Origin: Sandaracinus amylolyticus
GTDB taxonomy: Bacteria > Myxococcota_A > Polyangia > Polyangiales > Sandaracinaceae
NCBI RefSeq assembly: GCF_000737325.1
Contig: NZ_CP011125.1
Span: 2,294,001-2,358,000, forward strand
Length of the DNA: 64,000 nt
Reading direction: 5' to 3'
Numbering within the stretch: the first letter of the stretch is position 1; each line of letters begins with the position of its first letter. Shown here in pieces: positions 13,631 through 39,270 of this stretch. The translations under genes and the position numbers were made by a program. Under the pieces are notes generated by a model. It worked only from the letters and a program-made list of their open reading frames with translations, was not told the DNA's origin and searched no databases.

Positions 13631-13708
13631 ACCGAACGGTTGCCGCGCGCGGCCGCGCCGTCAACGGCCCTTGCGCGAGCGAGCACGACGGTGGAGGTTC
13701 CGCGCGCC

Positions 13709-14245
13709 ATGACCCGTCGCTTCGTGCTCGCGCTCTGCGCGCTCCTCGTGATCCCCACGTTCGCGCTCGCGCAGGACACCTCGATCCCCGAGCACAACCG
13801 CGCCGAGCTGACCGAGCCTCCGCCGCGCCCGGGGCCGGGCGACGTCGACGAGCGGGCGCGCCGCTTGGTGCAGGCGATCGCGCAGGACCAGCCCTCGCTC
13901 GCGCACGACTTCTTCCTCTCGCGCGAAGCGTTCCGCGCGATCAAGGGCATCGCCGATCCCGACGGGCTCTACGACCGCATCTTCCGGATGTACGAGGACG
14001 ACATCCACGAGCTGCACGCGCAGCTCGGCGCCGACGCGTCACGCGCGGAGTTCGTGCGCTTCGAATTCTCGCGCCGTCGCGCGTGGGTCCGACTGCGCGA
14101 GGAGTCCAATCGCCTCCCGTACTGGGCGCAGCGCCACAACTGGCTCGTCTATCGCGTGGGCGACGAAGAGCGCCGCATCGAGGTGCGCACGATGATCGCG
14201 TGGGACGACCGCTGGTACATCACGCACCTCAGCGAGTTCCGCTGA
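13709..14245 (+). CDS. Secreted protein of unknown function
   Basis: 178 residues with a clear Sec signal peptide (M-T-R-R-F-V-L-A-L-C-A-L-L-V-I-P, cleavage likely after A-L-A-Q). The mature part is charged and mostly helical, with R-R-L-V-Q-A-I-A-Q-D-Q-P near its beginning and a strand-rich end (R-R-I-E-V-R-T-M-I-A-W-D-D-R-W-Y-I-T-H-L). That ending resembles the substrate-facing sheet of small NTF2-like or periplasmic binding domains, but I assign no family. The ribosome binding site GGAGG lies eight to ten bases before the ATG. A tandem repeat array begins about 100 bases after its stop. Confidence 0.75.
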   Translation: MTRRFVLALCALLVIPTFALAQDTSIPEHNRAELTEPPPRPGPGDVDERARRLVQAIAQDQPSLAHDFFLSREAFRAIKGIADPDGLYDRIFRMYEDDIHELHAQLGADASRAEFVRFEFSRRRAWVRLREESNRLPYWAQRHNWLVYRVGDEERRIEVRTMIAWDDRWYITHLSEFR

Positions 14246-14350
14246 TCACGAGCTTTCCCCGACGAGCCGCGCCTGGATCGCGCGACGTGCCCGGGACGAT
14301 CGCGAGCACGCCTCGTGGGCTCCCGCGTCGACCCTGGAGCCCGCCCAGAC

Positions 14351-14599
14351 GTGTCCGAGACACGCGTCCCGATCTGGAAATCGGCGCGCCTGTCTCGCTC
14401 ACGCCGGCGCCGATTCCAGAATCGACGTGTGGGGTCGCTGAGACCCAACGATCGATTCTGAAATCGATGTCCGGGGTCGCTGAGACCCAACGATCGATTC
14501 TGAAATCGATATCCGGGGTCGCTGAGACCCAACGATCGATTCTGAAATCGACCTCGGGGGTCGCCGACACCCAGCGATCGATTCGAGAATCGATCGACC
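14351..14599. repeat. 42-bp tandem array of paired palindromes
   Basis: Four head-to-tail units (14431-14472, 14473-14514, 14515-14556 and the diverged 14557-14598) are preceded by two decayed copies (14351-14430). Each intact unit holds two inverted repeats: GGGTC/GACCC around GCTGA, and ATCGATT/AATCGAT around CTGA. The last unit is diverged but keeps a longer perfect pair, CGATCGATTC/GAATCGATCG. The decayed copies also keep pairing (GTGTC/GACAC; CGATT/AATCG), although their bases differ. The array fills the gap between two convergent genes and touches the stop codon of the downstream one. Both strands are open in some frames, with a 14-residue period, but there is no start context, so I treat it as non-coding. 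Confidence 0.9.
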
Positions 14600-15856
14600 T
14601 CACTCGCCGCGCGACGTCGACCACGGATCCGCGAGCGCGGGGTCCGTGAGGAACGACTCGTCGGTCAGGCTCTCGAGGAACGCGATCAGATCACGGCGCT
14701 CGTCGGGCGTGAGCTCGAACCCGACGACGAGCCCGCTCTTGAGCGGGCTCGCGCTCCCCACGCCCGCGTACGGACCCTCCGCGATGGTGCGCCCGCCCGC
14801 GGCGTAGTGATCGATCACCTCGTCGAGCGTCGCGATGCTCCCGTCGTGCATGTACGGCGCGGTCACCGCGATGTTGCGCAGCGTCGGCGCGCGGAAGCGG
14901 CCCATGTCGTCGGCGCGCCCGCTGATCTCGTGCACGCCGGTGCCGCCCTCGGGGTACGCGCCGGTCCCGCCGACGTTGTAGAGCCCCGTGTTGTGGAAGC
15001 GGACCTCGCGCGAGCCGCTGCCTTCCCACATCACCGCGTCGGCGAAGTTGAAGCCCTGGTGGCAGTGGAAGCACTCGAGGCGCTCCGAGCTGAACAGCGC
15101 CAGCCCGCGCCGCGCGCTCTCGGAGAGCGCGTCGGGCTCGCCGCCGTAGAGGAAGCGATCGTACGCCGAGCGACCCGAGACGAGCGTGCGCTGGAAGGCC
15201 GCGAGCGCGCGCGTGACGTTCGCGACGGTGAACGGGTCCGACTCGTCGGGGAACGCGAGCGGGAAGAGCTCCCGATAGCGCGCCTCCGCGCGCAGCCGCT
15301 CGAGCAGCTCGCGCTCCATCCCCGCGAGCCCGAGCTCGACGGGCTCGCGCCCGAAGAGCGGCACGAGCGCCTGCGCCTCGAGCTCCAGCAAGAGCGGGTT
15401 CGCCCACGTCAGCGTCGTCGCGTACGCGACGTTCGCGAGCGTCATCGAGCTGCGCGGCGTGCGCTCTCCGGTCGAGCCGATCGAGAACGCGCGCCCGTCG
15501 GTGAAGGCGCGCGCCTGCTCGTGGCACGACGCGCACGACTGCGTCCGGTTCCCGCTCAGGCGCGTGTCGTAGAAGAGGTGCCGCCCGAGCTCGACCTTCG
15601 AGGCCGACATCGGATTGTCCTCGGGCACCCGCGGGACCGGCAGCCCGCGCGGCAAGCGCCAGACCCAGCCCTGCGGGCCCGCGTCGATCGCGGCCGCGTC
15701 GATCTCGGGACCGCCATCGAGCGGCTCGACGGGGATCTCGCCGTGATCGTGGTCGTGATGCCCGTGCGACGCGTCGACCGTCCCGCGCGACGGCTGACAC
15801 GCGCCGAGCGCGCAGCACATCACGATCGCCCACCTCGATGCGCTCGTGCGTCGCAT
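14600..15856 (-). CDS. mbnH: MbnH-type di-heme enzyme (cytochrome c peroxidase family), lipoprotein
   Basis: 418 residues: a lipobox (C-A-L-G-A-C), a His-rich stretch (H-G-H-H-D-H-D-H-G, residues 31-39), then a di-heme peroxidase fold with two C-x-x-C-H sites (Cys108-His112 and Cys262-His266). This is the MauG/bacterial cytochrome c peroxidase superfamily. The gene follows its MbnP-type partner by only four bases, which identifies it as MbnH, the enzyme known in methanotrophs to convert a tryptophan of MbnP to kynurenine through a bis-Fe(IV) state. It acts outside the cytoplasm. No methanobactin genes are nearby. The His-rich segment could bind copper or zinc. Confidence 0.9.
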   Translation of the reverse strand: MRRTSASRWAIVMCCALGACQPSRGTVDASHGHHDHDHGEIPVEPLDGGPEIDAAAIDAGPQGWVWRLPRGLPVPRVPEDNPMSASKVELGRHLFYDTRLSGNRTQSCASCHEQARAFTDGRAFSIGSTGERTPRSSMTLANVAYATTLTWANPLLLELEAQALVPLFGREPVELGLAGMERELLERLRAEARYRELFPLAFPDESDPFTVANVTRALAAFQRTLVSGRSAYDRFLYGGEPDALSESARRGLALFSSERLECFHCHQGFNFADAVMWEGSGSREVRFHNTGLYNVGGTGAYPEGGTGVHEISGRADDMGRFRAPTLRNIAVTAPYMHDGSIATLDEVIDHYAAGGRTIAEGPYAGVGSASPLKSGLVVGFELTPDERRDLIAFLESLTDESFLTDPALADPWSTSRGE

Positions 15857-15860
15857 CGGC

Positions 15861-16916
15861 TCACTCCACGCGGAAGACGGTCTGCGTGCTCGGCGTCTCG
15901 CTGCCCGTCGACCAGTTCAGCCCGAGCGCGTCGAACGGGAACGCGCACGCGTCGGTGAACGAGTGGCAGCCGGCGCCGGTCGCGACGTCGACGTCCGCCT
16001 TCACCTCCGCGAGATCGACGATGATCGCGTCGCTCTCGGGATCGAATCCGTCGAGGTCGATGCTCGGACGGTTGGGCCGCGCGCAGCCCGTCACCGGCAT
16101 GCCCATCGCGGGATCGCCGCTGCACATCGTCGAGCCGACGTGCGTGAAGTGCGTGTTCGGTGCGTCCCCGGCCGTGCGCGTCACGCCCGAGAAGAAGAGG
16201 TGCCCGCCGCGCCAGCTCCAGAAGAGGCTCGTGCGGTTCAGCGGCGAAGGGAGCGACGTGAGGTCGGCGTGGTTCAGCGCGAACGGCACGCCGATGCGGA
16301 AGCGGAGGCCGACGTAGTCGCCCGCGGGCACGGTGCCGCGGATCGTGTCGCGCGTCTCGGCGTCGCCGCTGTCACACGTGCCGGTCGCGTCCTCGAAGTC
16401 GATCAGCGCGACGCCCATGTGCTGGAAGTCGTCCTCGGACATCGCGAGCGCGACCTCCTCGCCGCGCGCGTCGACGAGCCGCACGTCGTGCACGTAGAAG
16501 CGGAAGTCGACGGGGCTCGCGAGCACCGCGGGCGAGCCCATCGTGTACGTCGACTCGCAGTCGAACGCCTCGCTGCCCACGCGCGGGACGAAGCGCACGA
16601 CGACGTCCCGAGGCCCCGCATCGCTCGGCACGTACGCGTCGGTCGGAGCGCCCGCATCGCCCGAGCCGGCGTCGGTCTGCGGCGCGCAGAGCGCGAGGCA
16701 CGACGCGAGGCGCGCCTCGCACGCGGTGACGACGCCCGCGTGCCCGAGCTCGTCGCACTCGGCGATCGCCGGGTCACCGGGCGCGACGTCGTGACAGGCC
16801 TCGGAGACGAAGTCGCACGCGTTGCGATCCGCGGGCGCGTCGTCGCCGCACGCTGCGGTGGTGATCGTGACGAGGAGCGCGGAGAGGAGCCGTGGACGAA
16901 GGAAGCGGTCGTGCAT
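15861..16916 (-). CDS. mbnP: MbnP-family copper-binding protein partner (metallo-mystery pair), lipoprotein
   Basis: The signal peptide ends T-I-T-T-A-A-C, a lipobox. After a Cys-rich low-complexity spacer comes the conserved MbnP domain: F-R-F-Y-V-H-D-V-R-L-V, then F-A-L-N-H-A-D-L, then S-L-F-W-S-W-R-G-G-H-L-F-F, with several Cys placed as in the four-Cys motif of the family. The family is always paired with an MbnH di-heme enzyme; in the characterised pair, MbnH oxidises a Trp of MbnP to kynurenine and MbnP binds copper. Here the pair is a tight two-gene operon with MbnP first. A copper-handling role at the cell surface is inferred from the family. Confidence 0.88.
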   Translation of the reverse strand: MHDRFLRPRLLSALLVTITTAACGDDAPADRNACDFVSEACHDVAPGDPAIAECDELGHAGVVTACEARLASCLALCAPQTDAGSGDAGAPTDAYVPSDAGPRDVVVRFVPRVGSEAFDCESTYTMGSPAVLASPVDFRFYVHDVRLVDARGEEVALAMSEDDFQHMGVALIDFEDATGTCDSGDAETRDTIRGTVPAGDYVGLRFRIGVPFALNHADLTSLPSPLNRTSLFWSWRGGHLFFSGVTRTAGDAPNTHFTHVGSTMCSGDPAMGMPVTGCARPNRPSIDLDGFDPESDAIIVDLAEVKADVDVATGAGCHSFTDACAFPFDALGLNWSTGSETPSTQTVFRVE

Positions 16917-17036
16917 GCGCGCTTGGTACGACGCGCTCCGAGCCGAGGTAATGCGGCATCTCGTCGCACGGCACGACCGTCACGCGCTCGCGCGCCACCA
17001 GCCGGACGAGACCCCAGCGTGGATCCGACGCGCGCG

Positions 17037-27648: not shown

Positions 27649-27654
27649 GCAGCG

Positions 27655-28308
27655 CTATTCACGCGACGCGTGCTCCCTGATCAGCGCACCGACGACATCG
27701 AGTACTTCCTCGACCATCGCGTCTCGGTCGCGGGGCGGAACTGCGCGAGCCATCAGCGGTATTGCCGTCATCGACGCCCAGAGGAGCGTCGTCATCGGGA
27801 CAGGAACGCACCAACGGAGCGCGACCATCGAGGTCACCACGTCCGCGACGGCGCACGCAACACCGAGCAGCACGTTGACGCGGAGCAGCGGGTGGACTTC
27901 GCGCGCTTCGAGCCGGACCCCTCCGGGGACCGCCTCGGCGCGGATGACGAGCGGAATGAAGTACGGACGATTCTGCCGCCCAGGATTTCGCGGGGGCCGC
28001 TCGCGCACAGTGAAGAGCCGTCGATCGACGACCGTCACGATCGCGTTCCATATGGGAAACGATTGCAACGGTAGATTCGGAAGCTCGAGCTCCGAGGCTC
28101 TCGGCGAGTCTCGATATCCGCCATTCGCCACGACGACACGCTGAATGCCGTCGAGCGAGACGTCTCGGACGAAACGCGGCGGTCGATTCCAGTCGACGTA
28201 GCGCAACGGGTTGGCGCTCACGCACATCGCCGTGATGATCTGCGCGGCGCCCGCGACCCCGGCGAGCAACGCCATACCGAGCGCGTAGAGCGACATTGCG
28301 TCCAGCAT
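27655..28308 (-). CDS. Small membrane protein, candidate immunity protein of the effector cassette
   Basis: 217 residues. An N-terminal hydrophobic helix (about 6-28, Y-A-L-G-M-A-L-L-A-G-V-A-G) is followed by a globular stretch, and then by two close helices (about 146-165 and 170-190, V-N-V-L-L-G-V-A-C-A-V and T-T-L-L-W-A-S-M-T-A-I-P-L-M). No family was recognised. It is the last gene of the four-gene minus-strand cassette, three bases after the 832-residue membrane-active protein. Multi-pass inner-membrane proteins in this position typically protect against pore-forming type VI effectors. That role is inferred from position and topology only. Base composition is less GC-extreme than in flanking genes. 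Confidence 0.65.
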   Translation of the reverse strand: MLDAMSLYALGMALLAGVAGAAQIITAMCVSANPLRYVDWNRPPRFVRDVSLDGIQRVVVANGGYRDSPRASELELPNLPLQSFPIWNAIVTVVDRRLFTVRERPPRNPGRQNRPYFIPLVIRAEAVPGGVRLEAREVHPLLRVNVLLGVACAVADVVTSMVALRWCVPVPMTTLLWASMTAIPLMARAVPPRDRDAMVEEVLDVVGALIREHASRE

Positions 28309-28311
28309 GCG

Positions 28312-30810
28312 TCAGCTCCCGAGCGCGCGAAGCGCGGTGCTCAACCGGCGCAGCCGGTCGAGCGTTCGCGGCTGGAGGTTCCGAAGCGACGTCTCGCGTT
28401 CGCCGCCGAAGAGCTCTGCGCGCTTTGCGTCGTAGTAGGCACTCTGAAGCTCCTCGAGGTGATCTGCGCCTCCGTTCGCGAGCAACGCGACGACGTCGAC
28501 CGCAACGACCGTGAGACCGAGAACGGCCGATGCGATTACCAACCACGGTCCGCTCGCGCCGGCGAGGGCCGCGACGAGCCCGCCTGTCTCTACGATCGCG
28601 GCCACGACGTAAATCCCGCCTCGCGTCCTCGCGGCCAGCGCTGCGACGTCGTCGCCGCGATCGAGCGCGTGTTGGAGATCGCCGGAGCGCGAGAAGAAGA
28701 TCATCGCGCCGTCATATGCCATCGCTCCGATCCCGAGCACCGTCGCGACGCGCCCGAGCCCGCTCGCAGCACGCGCGAGGGCCGCGCTCGGATGTGCACC
28801 GGGCATCCGCAACAGCCGCGAGACGGGCTCGTAATAGTCGTGGTGACGCGTGGCGATCACCGCGAGGAACGATGCGGCGCTCTCCATCGTGCCGAGGACG
28901 CCTTGTCCTAGGTCCACGCACGTCCGGACGTTCTGCGCAGAGAGCTCGGTCGTGACCTGCTGGAACGCCAGCGCGGTGGAGATGATCTGCGCGGTGGCCA
29001 CGACGCCGTGCAGCGCCGCGGGCACGTGCTCGAGCGAATAGCGCTCGTGCTCCACGATCCTCACTCGCTCGTCTCCGGTGTATCGGTGCCAGGTCGGTTC
29101 CGCTGGCGCTGCCGATGACGTCGCTCGTGGCCACGACTCGTCTCCTCCGGTCGTGAGGAACTCGAATGCGAGACTTCTGGAAGTCCCGGAGTCGATGTGA
29201 ACACGCCCCTCGGCGAGATCGACGATCAGCCTCGATTGCTCGAGCCCCGGGAGCTCGAGGCGCTGGCCCGTCATCGCACCGTGGTAGCCGTAGAACGTCC
29301 GCACGAAATCGCCCACGTCCGCGGCACGGATGTCCCTGATCGTCTCGATGTTTCGGCAGAACTGCTCGCAAGACGCCGAGAAGAGCTGGGCTCCGTTGTC
29401 CGCCGCCGAGGCGATCGCGCTCATCGCTCTGCGGAAAAGACCATCTTCGCCGATCTCGCTCGCGACGCGCCGATAGAAGTGATGACCCAGCTCGAGTCTC
29501 ACGGCCGAGCAGCGGTTCCACATCTCGAACGCGTCGTCGGCCGCCCGAGTGTGCTCCCAGAGGCGGATCCACAGCGGGGCTTCGGCGACGTGCGTCTCGA
29601 GAAGCGATGCACACCATGCGCGCAGGCGATCGAGCTCGCGCTCCTGATCTCCGATCACGCGCTGCGAAATGTCCGTCATGCCGGCGGCGCGCTCACGAAT
29701 CGCCAGTCGGTAGAAGTCGAAGTAGTGCACGAACATGTCGACGAACTGAGGGCCGATGACGATCTCGTCGCGTGTGAACCGCGCTGAGCCGCTTGCGTGA
29801 TCCGTCTCGCCGATCGACGACGGATGCACCGCTCGGCCGGCGCTCTGCGCGAGCACGCTCCGCGCGCCCGCTTCCGCCAAGCCCATTCCGCCGGTGATGG
29901 TGCTTCCGAGCGACTGGCAGAAGGCTCGCCGGTCGACGTCCGGAGAGCGCGCCGCCGCCAAGGCGTACTGGTGGTAGGCGGCATAGACGTCTGCGCGGGC
30001 GAAGCTTCGTTCGGGGTTGCCGACGATGTCGGGAGGCAGCCCACGACGCTCGATGTCGATCATTCGCACGACGTGCGCGAGCAGCGCCCACTCGGGCGCC
30101 GTGCTCGCGAGCAGCGCGGTCGCGTATGCCATCACGAACTCGGCGACGTACGTCGCGACGAACGGCATGCTGCGATCGATCAGCGCGTAGTGGTGATCGA
30201 CCTGCTCGACGATCACCGCGGACGAGCGCGGCCCGAAGCGTCGTCGGTGTCTCACGATGCCCATCGGGCCCGGGCGGACCGAAGCGAGCAACACTGCGAT
30301 CTGCGAGGGCAGCTCGTGCTCGCCGAGCAGCGGGAGCTCCAATTCGCCCACCGCCGTCTCGGGCGCGAACGTGAAGTGCTGGAATGCGCGCTCTCGGATC
30401 ACCGTGGTCGCGCGCTCCGGGTCGGCGAGCGCCTCGATCACCTCGTCGTAGATCTCCTGGTGATAGGTCCAGAACACCAGGTACTCGCTCGGCGCGAACA
30501 GCGGAGCGACTCCGTCCTCGAGGAGGATCGAGCCGCGATCATCCGTCGTCGCCTCGATTGCGCGCGCGGGGTCGGGTCGCGGTGAGCTCGACGCGCTCCC
30601 CCCGACGAGCGGGACGATCACGACCCTCGCGCTCTGCACCGGCTCGAGTCGGACCGATTCTGCGAAATCACGCGCCATGTCGCGCGGATCTCGCCCAGTG
30701 CGCGAGTCCGTCTCGCGTGGTGGCGGCGGAATCCGGAGCTGCACCAGCGAGAGTGGCATTCCGACGAGCGTGTTCGGTGCGCCCGCGCTGACTCGCGCGA
30801 TCTGCGTCAT
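28312..30810 (-). CDS. VasX-like pore-forming effector candidate (832 aa)
   Basis: A large protein, soluble for about 650 residues, with a cluster of hydrophobic helices near the C-terminus: L-G-R-V-A-T-V-L-G-I-G-A-M-A-Y-D (about 677-692), I-Y-V-V-A-A-I-V-E-T-G-G-L-V-A-A-L-A-G (about 728-746) and L-V-I-A-S-A-V-L-G-L-T-V-V-A-V-D-V-V-A-L-L (about 752-772). A charged tail follows (E-L-Q-S-A-Y-Y-D-A-K-R-A-E). This order, with an R-G-D-D-V-A-A-L-type linker between helices, is the architecture of VasX/BTH_I2691-type type VI effectors. ATG 30810 was chosen because it overlaps the upstream stop (ATGA). Pore formation in rivals is an inference. Confidence 0.7.
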   Translation of the reverse strand: MTQIARVSAGAPNTLVGMPLSLVQLRIPPPPRETDSRTGRDPRDMARDFAESVRLEPVQSARVVIVPLVGGSASSSPRPDPARAIEATTDDRGSILLEDGVAPLFAPSEYLVFWTYHQEIYDEVIEALADPERATTVIRERAFQHFTFAPETAVGELELPLLGEHELPSQIAVLLASVRPGPMGIVRHRRRFGPRSSAVIVEQVDHHYALIDRSMPFVATYVAEFVMAYATALLASTAPEWALLAHVVRMIDIERRGLPPDIVGNPERSFARADVYAAYHQYALAAARSPDVDRRAFCQSLGSTITGGMGLAEAGARSVLAQSAGRAVHPSSIGETDHASGSARFTRDEIVIGPQFVDMFVHYFDFYRLAIRERAAGMTDISQRVIGDQERELDRLRAWCASLLETHVAEAPLWIRLWEHTRAADDAFEMWNRCSAVRLELGHHFYRRVASEIGEDGLFRRAMSAIASAADNGAQLFSASCEQFCRNIETIRDIRAADVGDFVRTFYGYHGAMTGQRLELPGLEQSRLIVDLAEGRVHIDSGTSRSLAFEFLTTGGDESWPRATSSAAPAEPTWHRYTGDERVRIVEHERYSLEHVPAALHGVVATAQIISTALAFQQVTTELSAQNVRTCVDLGQGVLGTMESAASFLAVIATRHHDYYEPVSRLLRMPGAHPSAALARAASGLGRVATVLGIGAMAYDGAMIFFSRSGDLQHALDRGDDVAALAARTRGGIYVVAAIVETGGLVAALAGASGPWLVIASAVLGLTVVAVDVVALLANGGADHLEELQSAYYDAKRAELFGGERETSLRNLQPRTLDRLRRLSTALRALGS

Positions 30811-31487
30811 GTTCCGTGCTCCTCCATCAATCGATCCCAGGTCTCCTGGTCGAGATCTCCCGTCGGCTCGGTTCTTCCGAGCACTTCTCTCTGGAATTCC
30901 GACAGCGCGTGTCGTGTCTTCGGTCCGAGCTCGCCGTCGACACGCCCGCACATGAAACCGAGGTTGTTGAGGCGCGCCTGGATGCCAGTCAGCACCGGAG
31001 TCGACGTGTCCTCGTCGGCGTGCGGGTCGAGCGTGCCCACCGCGAGCTCCCAGCGCAGGCGTCGGCGCGGTAGCTCGATCATCGCGGCTCGGATGCGCGC
31101 CGGGAGGACCTCACGCAGCTCGCCGTCACCGGTGGTCGTCCCGTCGCGCGTCTGCTCGACGCCGCGATCGTGGAACACGAGCACGTACGGCTCGCTCCCG
31201 AGCGTGGTGCCGTCGGGAAGACGGAGTCGGAGATGCAGCTCGACCGTGCCGGTGCGGACCTCGAACCGGTGTCGCTGCCCCGTCGCACAGTCGACCCGCT
31301 TCTCGCGCGGAGGCGGGACCGACACCCGATCGCCCGGCAGGAGCACGTGCATGGAGCGGCGACGTGCACGCAGCGCCTCGTTCTCGGGCGCGTTCCAGAT
31401 CCGCGCGGGATCGGCGACGCCGTAGCGCGCCGCGATGCTCGGCACGTCCTCGCCCTGGCGGACGACGTGCACTCGGTCGGTCGTCAT
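30807..31487 (-). CDS. LysM and peptidoglycan-binding domain protein, effector-cassette accessory
   Basis: 226 residues. The N-terminal LysM (about 5-53) has H-V-V-R-Q-G-E-D-V-P-S-I-A-A-R-Y-G and ends L-L-P-G-D-R-V-S-V-P. The middle is a strand-rich domain (E-L-H-L-R-L-R-L-P-D-G). The C-terminal PG_binding_1 domain (about 165-220) contains L-N-N-L-G-F-M-C-G-R-V-D-G-E-L-G-P-K-T. There is no signal peptide, so it is not exported by Sec. Cytoplasmic LysM/PGBD proteins coupled to effector genes are common in type VI clusters, where they ride with the spike or aid delivery. It overlaps both neighbours by four bases (ATGA). Confidence 0.8.
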   Translation of the reverse strand: MTTDRVHVVRQGEDVPSIAARYGVADPARIWNAPENEALRARRRSMHVLLPGDRVSVPPPREKRVDCATGQRHRFEVRTGTVELHLRLRLPDGTTLGSEPYVLVFHDRGVEQTRDGTTTGDGELREVLPARIRAAMIELPRRRLRWELAVGTLDPHADEDTSTPVLTGIQARLNNLGFMCGRVDGELGPKTRHALSEFQREVLGRTEPTGDLDQETWDRLMEEHGT

Positions 31488-32050
31488 CGTGATCCTCCCC
31501 CGGGCACCCACGCGTCGCCGTCGAGATCGGGGAACGTCACGGAGCAGGTCCCGGGGACGAGCCCGGAGACCCTCGCGATCCCCGTCGAGTCCGTGATGCC
31601 TCGGCGCACGCGCCCGTCTTCGGAGCGCATCTCGAACCGGGCGCCCACCACGGGCGCGCCGGCGTCGTCGACGAGCTCGAGCTCGATCCAGCTCGTCTCG
31701 GGCGCGCAGTCCGCCGGCGCTTGCCGTCCGTGCTCCCCTCTGATCGTGGCGACCCGCTCGACGCGTCGCACCAGCGCGAGCCGTCCGGTCAACGACTCGA
31801 GCTCGACTCGCACCAGCGCCTCGAGCTCGCCCTCCCCGAAGCCCGCGACGTCGCCGCGCAGACGGGCGAGCACGTCGCGCAGCTCGGGGCGGATGCGATG
31901 CGCGAGGCGCCCGAGGACGTCCACCGCGCGGCGCTCGTCCAGGCGCTCCCACCCCGCTCCGCGATCGAGCCGACGCAGCTCGAATCGCTCTCCGAGCGCG
32001 TACACGAACCCCCCATCGCGGAACTGGCACCGCCACATGCGACGACCCAT
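31484..32050 (-). CDS. VgrG-extension-like carboxypeptidase-regulatory (Ig-like) domain protein
   Basis: 188 residues. The C-terminal half reads W-I-E-L-E-L-V-D-D-A-G-A-P-V-V-G-A-R-F then I-A-R-V-S-G-L-V-P-G-T and S-V-T-F-P-D-L-D-G-D-A-W. This is the short transthyretin/carboxypeptidase-regulatory-like domain found as an extension on type VI spike proteins or in genes next to them. The N-terminal half is helical and charged (L-R-D-V-L-A-R-L-R-G-D-V) and begins with an F-V-Y-A-L-G-E-R-F strand. It is the first gene of the cassette and overlaps the LysM gene (ATGA). The start could also be the ATG at 32038. The adaptor role is inferred from its neighbours. Confidence 0.72.
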   Translation of the reverse strand: MGRRMWRCQFRDGGFVYALGERFELRRLDRGAGWERLDERRAVDVLGRLAHRIRPELRDVLARLRGDVAGFGEGELEALVRVELESLTGRLALVRRVERVATIRGEHGRQAPADCAPETSWIELELVDDAGAPVVGARFEMRSEDGRVRRGITDSTGIARVSGLVPGTCSVTFPDLDGDAWVPGGGSR

Positions 32051-32275
32051 CGGACCGCGCCGCGCGCTGTTGCGCCGTTTCGTGCTGCGAGCGCGCGCGG
32101 GTGTGCACCGCACATCACGTCGTGAACGACGAAGCCCTGGGCGCGGCGTGGGCGGCGCATGGGCGTTCGCGCCGAAACCGTGTGCGTGCCGCGCGAATCT
32201 GGCTCGGCACGAACGCTGCTGAGAGGCGGCGCAGCGAGCGCGGGGGGTCGCGCGTCGCGCATCAGGAGCTTGACC
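32051..32275. promoter_or_regulatory. Divergent intergenic region between the effector cassette and a lipoprotein gene
   Basis: 225 bases separate the divergent starts at 32050 and 32276. I see no gene and no confident -35/-10 pair. A ribosome binding site AGGAG lies just before the GTG at 32276. Base composition shifts here from the less GC-biased cassette back to the normal pattern. Confidence 0.3.
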
Positions 32276-36280: not shown

Positions 36281-37483
36281 GTGAGCAGCATCTGGACGCG
36301 CCCGTTCCTCGTCGCGTTCGCCGCGAACTTCCTGCACGGGCTCGGGGTGTTGCTGACGCTCCACCTGCCGGGCCTGCTCGAGCGGTGGGGCGAGCGCGCG
36401 CTGACCGTCGGGCTCGTCGTCGCGTCGGCGGGCGCGGGCGCGGTCGCGGTGCGCCCGTTCGCGGGGCGCGCGATGGACGGCGGCGCCGGGCGCCGCGGCG
36501 TGATGGTGCTCGGCGGGCTCGTGCACGCGATCGCGTGCGCGGGGTACCTCTTCGTCGATCACGTCGGGCCCCTCTTGTGGATCGTGCGCGTCGCGCATGG
36601 CCTCGGATCGGGCGCGGCGCTCGCGGCGCTCTTCACGTCGGCGACCGATCTCGTGCCCGCGGCGCGTCGCGTGGAAGGGCTCGCGACGTTCGGCGTGTCG
36701 GGCCTCATGCCGGTCGCGCTCGGCGGGCTGGTCGGCGATCTCGTGCTGCAGCACGCGGGGTTCACCGAGCTCTTCGTGCTGATGCTCGCGTGCTCGAGCC
36801 TCGGGCTCCTCGTCTCGCTCGCGCTGCCCGAGACCGGCGCGCGCCAGGGTCGCGACGCGGTCCACGTGCACGCGCGCGCGCAGCGCGGCTTCGTCGCGGT
36901 CGCGCTGCAGCGCGATCTGCTGCCGGTGTGGTTCATCGGGCTCGCGTTCGCGAGCGCGCTCGGCGCGACCTACGCGTTCCTCGCGACCTTCGTGCTCGAG
37001 GAGCACATCGGGTCGGTCGGGCTCTTCTACGGGTGGTACGCGGCGATGGCGATCCTGCTGCGCCTCACGGCGGGATGGGTCCCGGAGCGCGTCGGCCCGA
37101 AGCGCGTGCTCGCGCCTTCGCTCGTCGCGATCGCGATCGCGCTCGCCGCGCTCGCGCTGGCGCGCGACGCGTGGTCGATGGCGCTCGCGGGCGCGCTCGC
37201 CGGGCTCGGCCACTCGTTCGCGTTCCCGATCGTCAGCGGCATGACCGCGGGGCGCGCGCGCGACGAGGAGCGCGGCTCGGCGATGTCACTCTTCAGCGCG
37301 ATCTTCGACGCCGGGATCTTGTTCGCGAGCCCGATCTTCGGCGCGCTCGCGGACGCGACCTCGCTGCGCACGACGTTCGCCGCCGCGGCGGTGGTGCCGG
37401 TGATCGGGGGCGCGCTCTTCTTCGTGTGGGACGCCCGCGTGCTCCCGCGGCGGGTCGAAAACGCTGTGATTTCGCGGGACTGA
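36281..37483 (+). CDS. MFS transporter
   Basis: 400 residues with about 12 hydrophobic helices. The first is F-L-V-A-F-A-A-N-F-L-H-G-L-G-V-L-L-T-L-H-L-P. The MFS loop 2-3 is present as R-P-F-A-G-R-A-M-D-G-G-A-G-R-R-G, and the second half repeats it (R-L-T-A-G-W-V-P-E-R-V-G-P-K-R). This resembles sugar-efflux or drug-efflux type members. The substrate is unknown. The GTG start lies 27 bases after the thioesterase stop, probably in the same transcription unit. A 21-bp tandem array follows its stop. Confidence 0.85.
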   Translation: MSSIWTRPFLVAFAANFLHGLGVLLTLHLPGLLERWGERALTVGLVVASAGAGAVAVRPFAGRAMDGGAGRRGVMVLGGLVHAIACAGYLFVDHVGPLLWIVRVAHGLGSGAALAALFTSATDLVPAARRVEGLATFGVSGLMPVALGGLVGDLVLQHAGFTELFVLMLACSSLGLLVSLALPETGARQGRDAVHVHARAQRGFVAVALQRDLLPVWFIGLAFASALGATYAFLATFVLEEHIGSVGLFYGWYAAMAILLRLTAGWVPERVGPKRVLAPSLVAIAIALAALALARDAWSMALAGALAGLGHSFAFPIVSGMTAGRARDEERGSAMSLFSAIFDAGILFASPIFGALADATSLRTTFAAAAVVPVIGGALFFVWDARVLPRRVENAVISRD

Positions 37484-37536
37484 GCCCCCGCGGTCGGTCT
37501 CGTGCCCGCCGCGGTCGGCCACGTCGCCGCTGGGCG

Positions 37537-37803
37537 CCGTCTCGGTGCCGCTGCGCGCCGTCTCGGTGCCGCTGCGCGCGGTCTCGGTGCCGCTGTTCGT
37601 GCCAACGGTGCCGCCGTTCCGTGCAACGGTGCCGCCGATCGCGAAAACGGTGCCGCCGATCGCCAAAACGAGGGCGCCGATCGCGAAATCGAGGCCGGCA
37701 GTGGGGGCGCCGCACCCCACCGATCAGTTCCTCGGGGCCGCCGATCAGTTCCTCGGGGCCGCCGATCAGCTCCTCGGGGCCGCCGTCATGCTCCGCGGGG
37801 CCG
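37537..37803. repeat. Two blocks of 21-bp tandem repeats between convergent genes
   Basis: Block one (about 37537-37692) is a degenerate 21-base period that drifts from GCCGTCTCGGTGCCGCTGCG-type units to GCCGATCGCGAAAACGGTGC-type units. Block two (37721-37803) has three near-identical 21-base units beginning CGATCAGTTCCTCGGGGCCG and a decayed fourth that runs into the last codons of the methyltransferase gene. A 7-residue period appears in translation on both strands, but no start context supports a gene. The array sits between a plus-strand stop at 37483 and a minus-strand stop at 37786. Block-one units contain CGATCG-like sites, also seen in the 42-bp array. Confidence 0.85.
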
Positions 37804-39270
37804 CTGCGCGGCGCGGCGGACGATCAGCATCTTGATCCCACCGCGCGCGTCGACGCCGGGCTCGGTCACGAAGCCGGGCGGCAGCGTGCGCACGTCGAAG
37901 CTGCGCGGGAGCTTCAGCACGATCGCGCCCTCGAACGTCGCGATCAGCGGGCGCACGTCGAGCGCGAGATCCTCCGCGACGACACGCGCGCGATCGTAGT
38001 CGCGCCCGCCCCACGGCGGGTCGAGCACCAGCACGTCGGCGCGCTCGCGCGCGATCACGTCGTGCACGTCGCCGTGCACGAAGCGGATGCGCGACGCGAC
38101 GTCGTAGATGCGCGCGTTGTGCGCGGCCATCGCGAGGCGCGACGTGTCGAGGTCGACCGCGATCACCTCGCGCACCTCGGGCCGCCGCGCGAGCGCGATT
38201 GCGATCGATCCGATGCCGCACGTGCCGTCGATCACCACGCCGTGCGCGCCCTCGGCGATGCGATCGGCGAGCGCCTCGGGCGTCGCCGAGAAGAGCCCTT
38301 CGTCGTCGGCCTGGATGCCGCGATCCCACCGCGAGAAGAGCTCGCGTCGACGCTCGCTCCGCGGGCGCCAGGGCGGCGCGGCGCGACCGGCGCGCAGCGG
38401 AGGATCGACGTGCACCCGCACGATCTCGCCGCCGAGCGGCAGGCCGTCGAGCTCGCGCAGCGCCCAGCGCGCCTTCGCGGCGGGGATGTCTCCGCGCCAT
38501 CGCGAGGTGTCGAGCCACGCGGGGGCTTCCACGCGCACTCGCACCGCGCGCGCGGTGTCGCGCGGCATCAGTCGATCGACGACGTCGCGCGCGCGCTCGG
38601 CCGCGTCCTCCGCGTCGTCGCCGCGCGCGAGCGTCGCTTCGCGCGCGAGCGCGGCGAGCAGCGCGAGATCGTAGGCTGCGTCGTCGTCGTCGTCGCGCAG
38701 CGCGCCGAGCCCGAAGACCTCGGGCGCGACGAGATCGATCGCGCTCCAGCCCTCGTGCTGCGCGTGGCGCATCGAGAGCGACGCGACGCCTCCCTCCGCG
38801 CGCCGCAGCCACGCCGGGTGCACGCCGCCGAGGATCGGGCCCACGCGCGTCGTGACCCGCAGCGTGCGCGCGAGCAGGCGATCGGTGCGCGCCCGCCCCA
38901 CGATGCGCGCGAGCGCGCGCGGCACCGAGATCGGCGAGGCGATGCCCTCGAGGTGGGCGCGCACCGTCGCCTCGATCGTGCGCACCTCGCGCGGCGCCGA
39001 CGCGACGAGCGCCTCGAGCGCGTCCTCCGGCGCGTCGGGCGATGCCGCGAGCGCGATCGCCCGCGCGGTGTGCGCGACCACGCGCGGCGCGAGCGGATGC
39101 GCGGCGCCCCGCGCGAGCCCGGCGAGCTCGTCCCGTACCCGGGCCTCGCTCGCGCACCACGCGACGATCCCGTCGCCGATCCACCACGTGCGCGGACCGT
39201 CGAACGGCAGCGCGCTCGGCCGCGCCTCGAGCGGCATCCCGAGCTCCGCGATCACCTCGTCGTCGCGCAC
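37786..39270 (-). CDS. TGS1-like class I methyltransferase with large N-terminal domain
   Basis: 494 residues. The C-terminal third is a SAM-dependent Rossmann methyltransferase: V-V-I-D-G-T-C-G-I-G-S-I-A-I-A-L-A-R (motif I), V-I-A-V-D-L-D (acidic motif II), and V-L-V-L-D-P-P-W-G-G (motif IV). The D-P-P-W-G-G form is characteristic of the RNA cap guanine-N2 methyltransferase (TGS1) family, which has bacterial members acting on unknown RNAs. The N-terminal 300 residues are Ala/Arg-rich and not recognised. The GTG start is six bases after CAGACT, so a short or absent leader is possible. Confidence 0.78.
   Translation of the reverse strand: MRDDEVIAELGMPLEARPSALPFDGPRTWWIGDGIVAWCASEARVRDELAGLARGAAHPLAPRVVAHTARAIALAASPDAPEDALEALVASAPREVRTIEATVRAHLEGIASPISVPRALARIVGRARTDRLLARTLRVTTRVGPILGGVHPAWLRRAEGGVASLSMRHAQHEGWSAIDLVAPEVFGLGALRDDDDDAAYDLALLAALAREATLARGDDAEDAAERARDVVDRLMPRDTARAVRVRVEAPAWLDTSRWRGDIPAAKARWALRELDGLPLGGEIVRVHVDPPLRAGRAAPPWRPRSERRRELFSRWDRGIQADDEGLFSATPEALADRIAEGAHGVVIDGTCGIGSIAIALARRPEVREVIAVDLDTSRLAMAAHNARIYDVASRIRFVHGDVHDVIARERADVLVLDPPWGGRDYDRARVVAEDLALDVRPLIATFEGAIVLKLPRSFDVRTLPPGFVTEPGVDARGGIKMLIVRRAAQRPRGA

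Follow-up and report, generated by a model that had tools for sequence, protein, structure and literature searches.

The array at positions 14351–14599 of the window (the whole 64,000-nucleotide stretch of Sandaracinus amylolyticus DNA that was analysed, part of a single chromosome of 10,327,335 bp, or 10.33 Mb) is one of nine dispersed arrays in this chromosome, in every one of which two kinds of palindrome, termed the A and B dyads, alternate. The reading that best accounts for the arrays, to which we assign a probability of about 0.45, is that they are non-coding, RAYT-independent, BIME-like DNA elements whose phased dyads would seat a dimeric DNA-binding protein. A DNA-level element of the BIME-2 type is favored because of the constant core of the B dyad, the spacing of two helical turns, the symmetry that persists through changes of array type, and the absence of both a strand bias and a link to gene 3' ends.

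Palindromes whose arms change in a compensatory manner are commonly taken as proof of RNA structure. The Sandaracinus arrays combine symmetry without strand bias, five arm types, and in-register switches in a genome without a REP transposase. With about nine loci and orthologous full and empty sites, they constitute a small natural system in which the persistence of palindromes through a DNA-binding protein can be set against their re-perfecting during replication.

The window array and its chromosomal family

TRF resolved positions 14420–14593 into 4.1 copies of a 42-bp period, which, together with exact palindromes at the individual sites, bears out the tandem array with two palindromes per unit proposed in the preliminary description. 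The whole array is of type I, with A and B dyads alternating about 21 bp apart, and no strand is assigned to it or to its dyads. Its left part comprises a diverged A dyad, GTGTC-CGA-GACAC (GTGTCCGAGACAC, 14351–14363, centre 14357), a diverged B dyad CCGATCTGGAAATCGG (14369–14384, centre 14376.5), a decayed A position around 14397 (14392–14404), and a further diverged B dyad CGATTCCAGAATCG (14411–14424). The claim that these left copies keep their pairing holds for the sites beginning at 14351, 14369, and 14411, which are palindromic, but fails at the decayed A position, where 3 of 9 pairs are left and palindromy is gone. To the right, the A dyad GGGTCGCTGAGACCC occurs three times (14432–14446, 14474–14488, and 14516–14530), interleaved with two copies of the B dyad ATCGATTCTGAAATCGAT (14451–14468 and 14493–14510) and a third B copy, TCGATTCTGAAATCGA, shortened to TCGATT..AATCGA (14536–14551). 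The fourth A dyad, GGGTCGCCGACACCC, lies at 14557–14571, and the last B copy, CGATCGATTCGAGAATCGATCG (14575–14596), indeed has the extended arms ascribed to it. In a scan for dyads 20–22 bp apart, the window array gave a chain score of 12.7, and no chain scoring 7 or more occurred in 464 kb of Markov-resampled control sequence scanned for the same spacing.

Searches by BLAST, pattern, and covariance model located the nine arrays at 1.047, 2.308 (the window array), 2.514, 3.262, 3.609, 4.172, 4.830, 5.301, and 8.906 Mb, a count to which arrays of quite different sequence could add. The search of the genome and its relatives that had been proposed for the unit thus showed that the window array is not unique, and relatives carry arrays as well. 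The nine loci, all intergenic by ORF and codon-composition calls, hold roughly 120 palindromes altogether. No further array was found in a 400-kb random sample of the genome, and an unbiased dyad-chain scan of 644 kb returned the known arrays only. On a different chain score, suited to rough comparison only, the array L067 reached 14.2, not above its own 95% control level of 14.5, and is supported by other evidence. Covariance models trained on type I and on type II each detected arrays of the other type, indicating that the array types are related. The sequence CGATTCTGAAATCG, allowing up to two mismatches, occurs almost exclusively inside arrays; solitary near-exact B sites are essentially absent, so that the solitary operator copies belonging to an operator regulon of one dimeric regulator were not found. 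A coding repeat was rejected because the type II units measure 41 bp and shift the frame. Elsewhere in the window, at 37119–37804, lies a cluster of 21-bp tandem repeats with several different units, which is probably coding.

The window array is flanked on the left by an ORF without a Pfam family (13673–14245, plus strand) and on the right by a di-haem cytochrome c peroxidase gene (CCP_MauG, 14600–15856, minus strand), which is paired with a gene for an MbnP-family protein (15861–16916, minus strand). The 3' ends of both neighbors face the array, and its context is therefore convergent. Across the loci, convergent, tandem, and divergent contexts all occur with unrelated neighboring genes, among which no recombinase gene was seen. 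Three related copies of one gene, here called the X gene (L067:4968-5891; L074:5134-5979; and L088, at 5765329-5766146 of the congener genome G001), have an array close to their start codon, at the same place and with differing array types. The X family consists of proteins of about 300 aa without a Pfam match, with 6 hits in the window's genome, 8 in the congener, and 16 in a genome of another genus of the same family (G004). The X gene was rejected as a general partner of the arrays, other copies having no array. The L088 copy is read in two overlapping frames.

Phasing, constant core, and arm types

The preliminary description mentioned neither the other eight arrays nor the even phasing of the dyads. 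Dyad centers were traced through 17 arrays of three genomes. Neighboring centers lie 20.5 bp apart in 102 of 187 intervals and 20.5–21.5 bp apart in 171 of 187, a spacing of about two helical turns. Since the tracing permitted only 20–22 bp, the informative part of this result is the sharp mode at 20.5 and not the range. In clean type II arrays, where the dyads were located independently, the spacing is 20.5 or 21.0 bp nearly everywhere.

The B dyad retains the core GATT..AATC in every type as well as in the other genus, with a half-site spacing that varies between loops of 3 and 4. The pairs flanking this core are Watson–Crick in 62 of 69 cases (C-G 52, G-C 8, and A-T 2), where 46 were expected. 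The A dyad, by comparison, comes with at least five types of arm, each self-complementary: GGGTC/GACCC in type I; GAATC/GATTC in type II, with the arms CGAATCTC/GAGATTCG; CGGTA/TACCG in type III; AAGGGT/ACCCTT in type IV, which belongs to the other genus; and, in type V, GGGTC in a shifted form. In the small set of six A-type representatives, the fit of each arm to its own partner beats 718 of 720 reassignments.

The preliminary description had held that pairing is kept while the bases change. Between array types this stands, as the arm reassignments and the flanks of the B core attest, but it does not extend to the window's own subtype: pairing within type I is 84.4% versus 83.5% in shuffled columns, and its covariation score does not stand out from shuffles, 52 of 500 of which attain it. 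When type II was added to type I, covariation exceeded all shuffles, mainly through a single change of GG/CC to AA/TT. Mismatches of the G.T and A.C kinds are equally common (51 versus 45), so nothing points to an RNA on one strand.

Distribution, type switches, and empty sites

Among 289 genomes of the class, a pattern of two successive B dyads was found in three, namely the window's genome (G000), the congener (G001), and G004 (the Deltaproteobacteria MAG UWPOB_DELTA5), and reversed controls gave zero. Most relatives lack the arrays, which speaks against an essential role. The same pattern over 85,000 genomes matched 48 places. Most of these are GTAGGGGCGATTC..GAATCGCCCCTAC repeats, occurring in Clostridia, Methylotenera, Oscillatoria, and others, and L142 is the only true relative among the 48. 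Homologues in other phyla were rejected, most of these places being REPs with a GTAG head or, lacking the A–B alternation, unrelated repeats. No earlier description of the arrays was found in the open-access literature.

The congener has at least seven arrays, and five array places are common to both Sandaracinus genomes (L070/L119, L067/L087, L073/L086, L074/L085, and L071/L219). At the orthologous locus L074/L085, L074 is of type II and L085 of type I; at L071/L219, L071 passes from type III to type II in the same register and L219 is of type III. Type switches, whether at orthologous loci or inside one array, keep the register. Two further congener arrays, L120 and L121 (G001 10455120 and 9403113), are very short, with one or two units and half an A site at the end, and are possibly minimal or decaying copies.

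Four arrays (L069, L068, L072, and the window array) are missing at the matching sites of the congener, where, with two species compared, gain and loss are alike possible. The L069 site is a clean empty site, whereas at L068 and L072 the flanking genes are intact and another short sequence takes the place of the array. In the congener, window positions 14245 and 17039 lie almost side by side, so the window array is missing there together with two genes, as a 2.8-kb block (14246–17036, no strand assigned); the CCP_MauG/MbnP gene pair occurs elsewhere in that genome at 75% DNA identity. A 4.4-kb stretch at about 27651–32094 of the window also has no counterpart in the congener, where its flanks are directly joined. 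L068 (about 2513590–2513800 of the genome) contains a distinct repeat, about 190 bp long and bearing the motif CTCGCCCTTCGGGCATCGTGGAGCCGAATTTTCGG, which has related copies at a dozen or more places in the congener.

A proposed protein array, palindrome turnover, and other readings

Iteron and operator arrays for dimeric DNA-binding proteins resemble the Sandaracinus arrays in the even phasing of their dyads and in having a constant core. Unlike such systems, the Sandaracinus arrays come without a known cognate protein or solitary sites, and they consist of two alternating kinds of site with array-specific arms. In the favored reading, the array would act as double-stranded DNA, and each dyad would seat a putative dimeric DNA-binding protein, the B dyad through its constant GATT..AATC core and the A dyad through its array-specific arms. 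The bound proteins would be aligned on one face of the helix and could form a nucleoprotein array, by analogy with the BIME-2 arrays, which bind gyrase (PMC2817692). Growth of an array would proceed by unequal recombination or slippage, arrays may be overwritten by gene conversion between them via the common B sites, and spread to new places would depend on ordinary indels and rearrangements rather than on a dedicated transposase. Against the protein array stand the array-specific A arms and the variable B loop, which are hard to reconcile with a single sequence-specific dimer, as well as the consideration that the retained symmetry could be mutational and not selected. A bolder and rather unlikely version is a palindrome-lattice element in which selection would act on dyad symmetry and two-turn phasing instead of sequence, with B dyads as anchors and A dyads exchangeable, on which a putative family of dimeric proteins would form one-sided arrays in the Sandaracinaceae.

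The main rival, a serious contender of lesser probability, is a neutral or selfish palindrome array in which template switching re-perfects the palindromes and slippage and gene conversion multiply the copies without any function. This mutational cause was absent from the readings of the preliminary description. Perfect stems and double substitutions can arise and persist through template switching (PMC8794818), and the type I covariation that stays within shuffles, the strand-symmetric mismatches, the near-identity of neighboring copies, the rapid gain, loss, and type switching, and the lack of a conserved gene context are all consistent with it. Turnover alone, however, does not explain why the GATT..AATC core is constant from one genus to another, why the two-turn spacing is maintained through type switches, or why three related X-gene loci carry an array at the same place with differing type.

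The proposal that the arrays act at the RNA level, as serial hairpins in a transcript whose role would be to terminate, stabilize, or protect mRNA 3' ends, is improbable. The window array has convergent neighbors. It also folds far better than shuffles on either strand (z = −7.2 and −7.9 for RNA and −6.2 for DNA), as would any set of palindromes. The minimum-energy fold, however, joins distant copies and not local hairpins, and the innermost bases of the type II A dyad pair across a single base, an arrangement that RNA loops cannot use. Selection on structure, as suggested earlier, found no backing in the sense of a structured RNA or terminator either: no T-tailed GC-rich hairpin of the intrinsic terminator kind occurs in 14150–14750, G.U pairs are not in excess, as the G.T and A.C counts indicate, eight array loci gave no Rfam match apart from an unrelated tRNA, and divergent, convergent, and tandem contexts occur alike.

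Equally little probability attaches to the arrays being sites of recombination or rearrangement, whether for a recombinase or as break hotspots. Four of the nine arrays (the window array, L067, L073, and L074) abut indels or synteny breaks relative to the congener; a 20-kb stretch taken for comparison has about two large indels. These numbers are small, though, L070/L119, L069, and L072 lie in collinear DNA, and the neighboring genes do not include a recombinase.

That the arrays are true REP/BIME elements, GTAG- or CGTC-tagged and mobilized by a RAYT-type Y1 transposase, is very improbable: short intergenic palindromes with alternating units in tandem recall BIME-2 (PMC2817692), and GTAG-headed REPs elsewhere share a CGATTC..GAATCG stem, but the tag counts and the lack of the transposase already contradict this reading, and there are nine loci only. 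GTAG stands beside 0 of 177 sites, GTGG beside 14 (8 expected), and CGTC beside 16 of 177 (28 expected by chance), and a search for Y1_Tnp (RAYT, PF01797) gave no match in the window's genome while being positive in 5 of 14 control genomes. The earlier statement that the unit is not a known REP or BIME is accordingly upheld in the sense that it is not a tagged REP.

Comparison with the individual systems leads to the same view. The arrays share with REP/BIME elements their extragenic position and the regularly spaced tandem of alternating palindromes typical of BIME-2; what they lack is the GTAG/GTGG head, the RAYT, and the abundance, which is usually above 100 copies per genome versus nine loci here. 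Binding of gyrase or IHF is also among the criteria for GTAG REP/BIME. Like BIME-2 of E. coli, they are dispersed, intergenic, and tandem, with alternating palindromes and two kinds of linker (PMC2817692). Unlike BIME-2, they have neither GTAG-headed REP units nor a RAYT and are confined to nine loci, and their palindromes are shorter, their two-turn spacing is strict, and their arms switch between arrays. CGTC-tagged REPs such as dRS3 are palindromic repeats without a dedicated transposase (PMC3733652), as are the Sandaracinus arrays, but their stems of 8–9 bp, loops of 4–5, predominance of dimers, and rarity of clusters set them apart, and the CGTC tag that defines them is at or below chance in the arrays. 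The Sandaracinus arrays are a lineage-specific relative of the REP/BIME repeats of other bacteria in kind rather than by demonstrated descent. GTAG-tagged REPs resemble the arrays in their short stems, some families elsewhere having a CGATTC..GAATCG stem similar to the B dyad, and differ from them in the tag, the Y1 transposase, and families that are typically far more numerous. At L131–L178, in Clostridia, Methylotenera, Oscillatoria, and others, GTAG-headed palindromes GTAGGGGCGATTCACGAATCGCCC occur in pairs about 41–43 bp apart.
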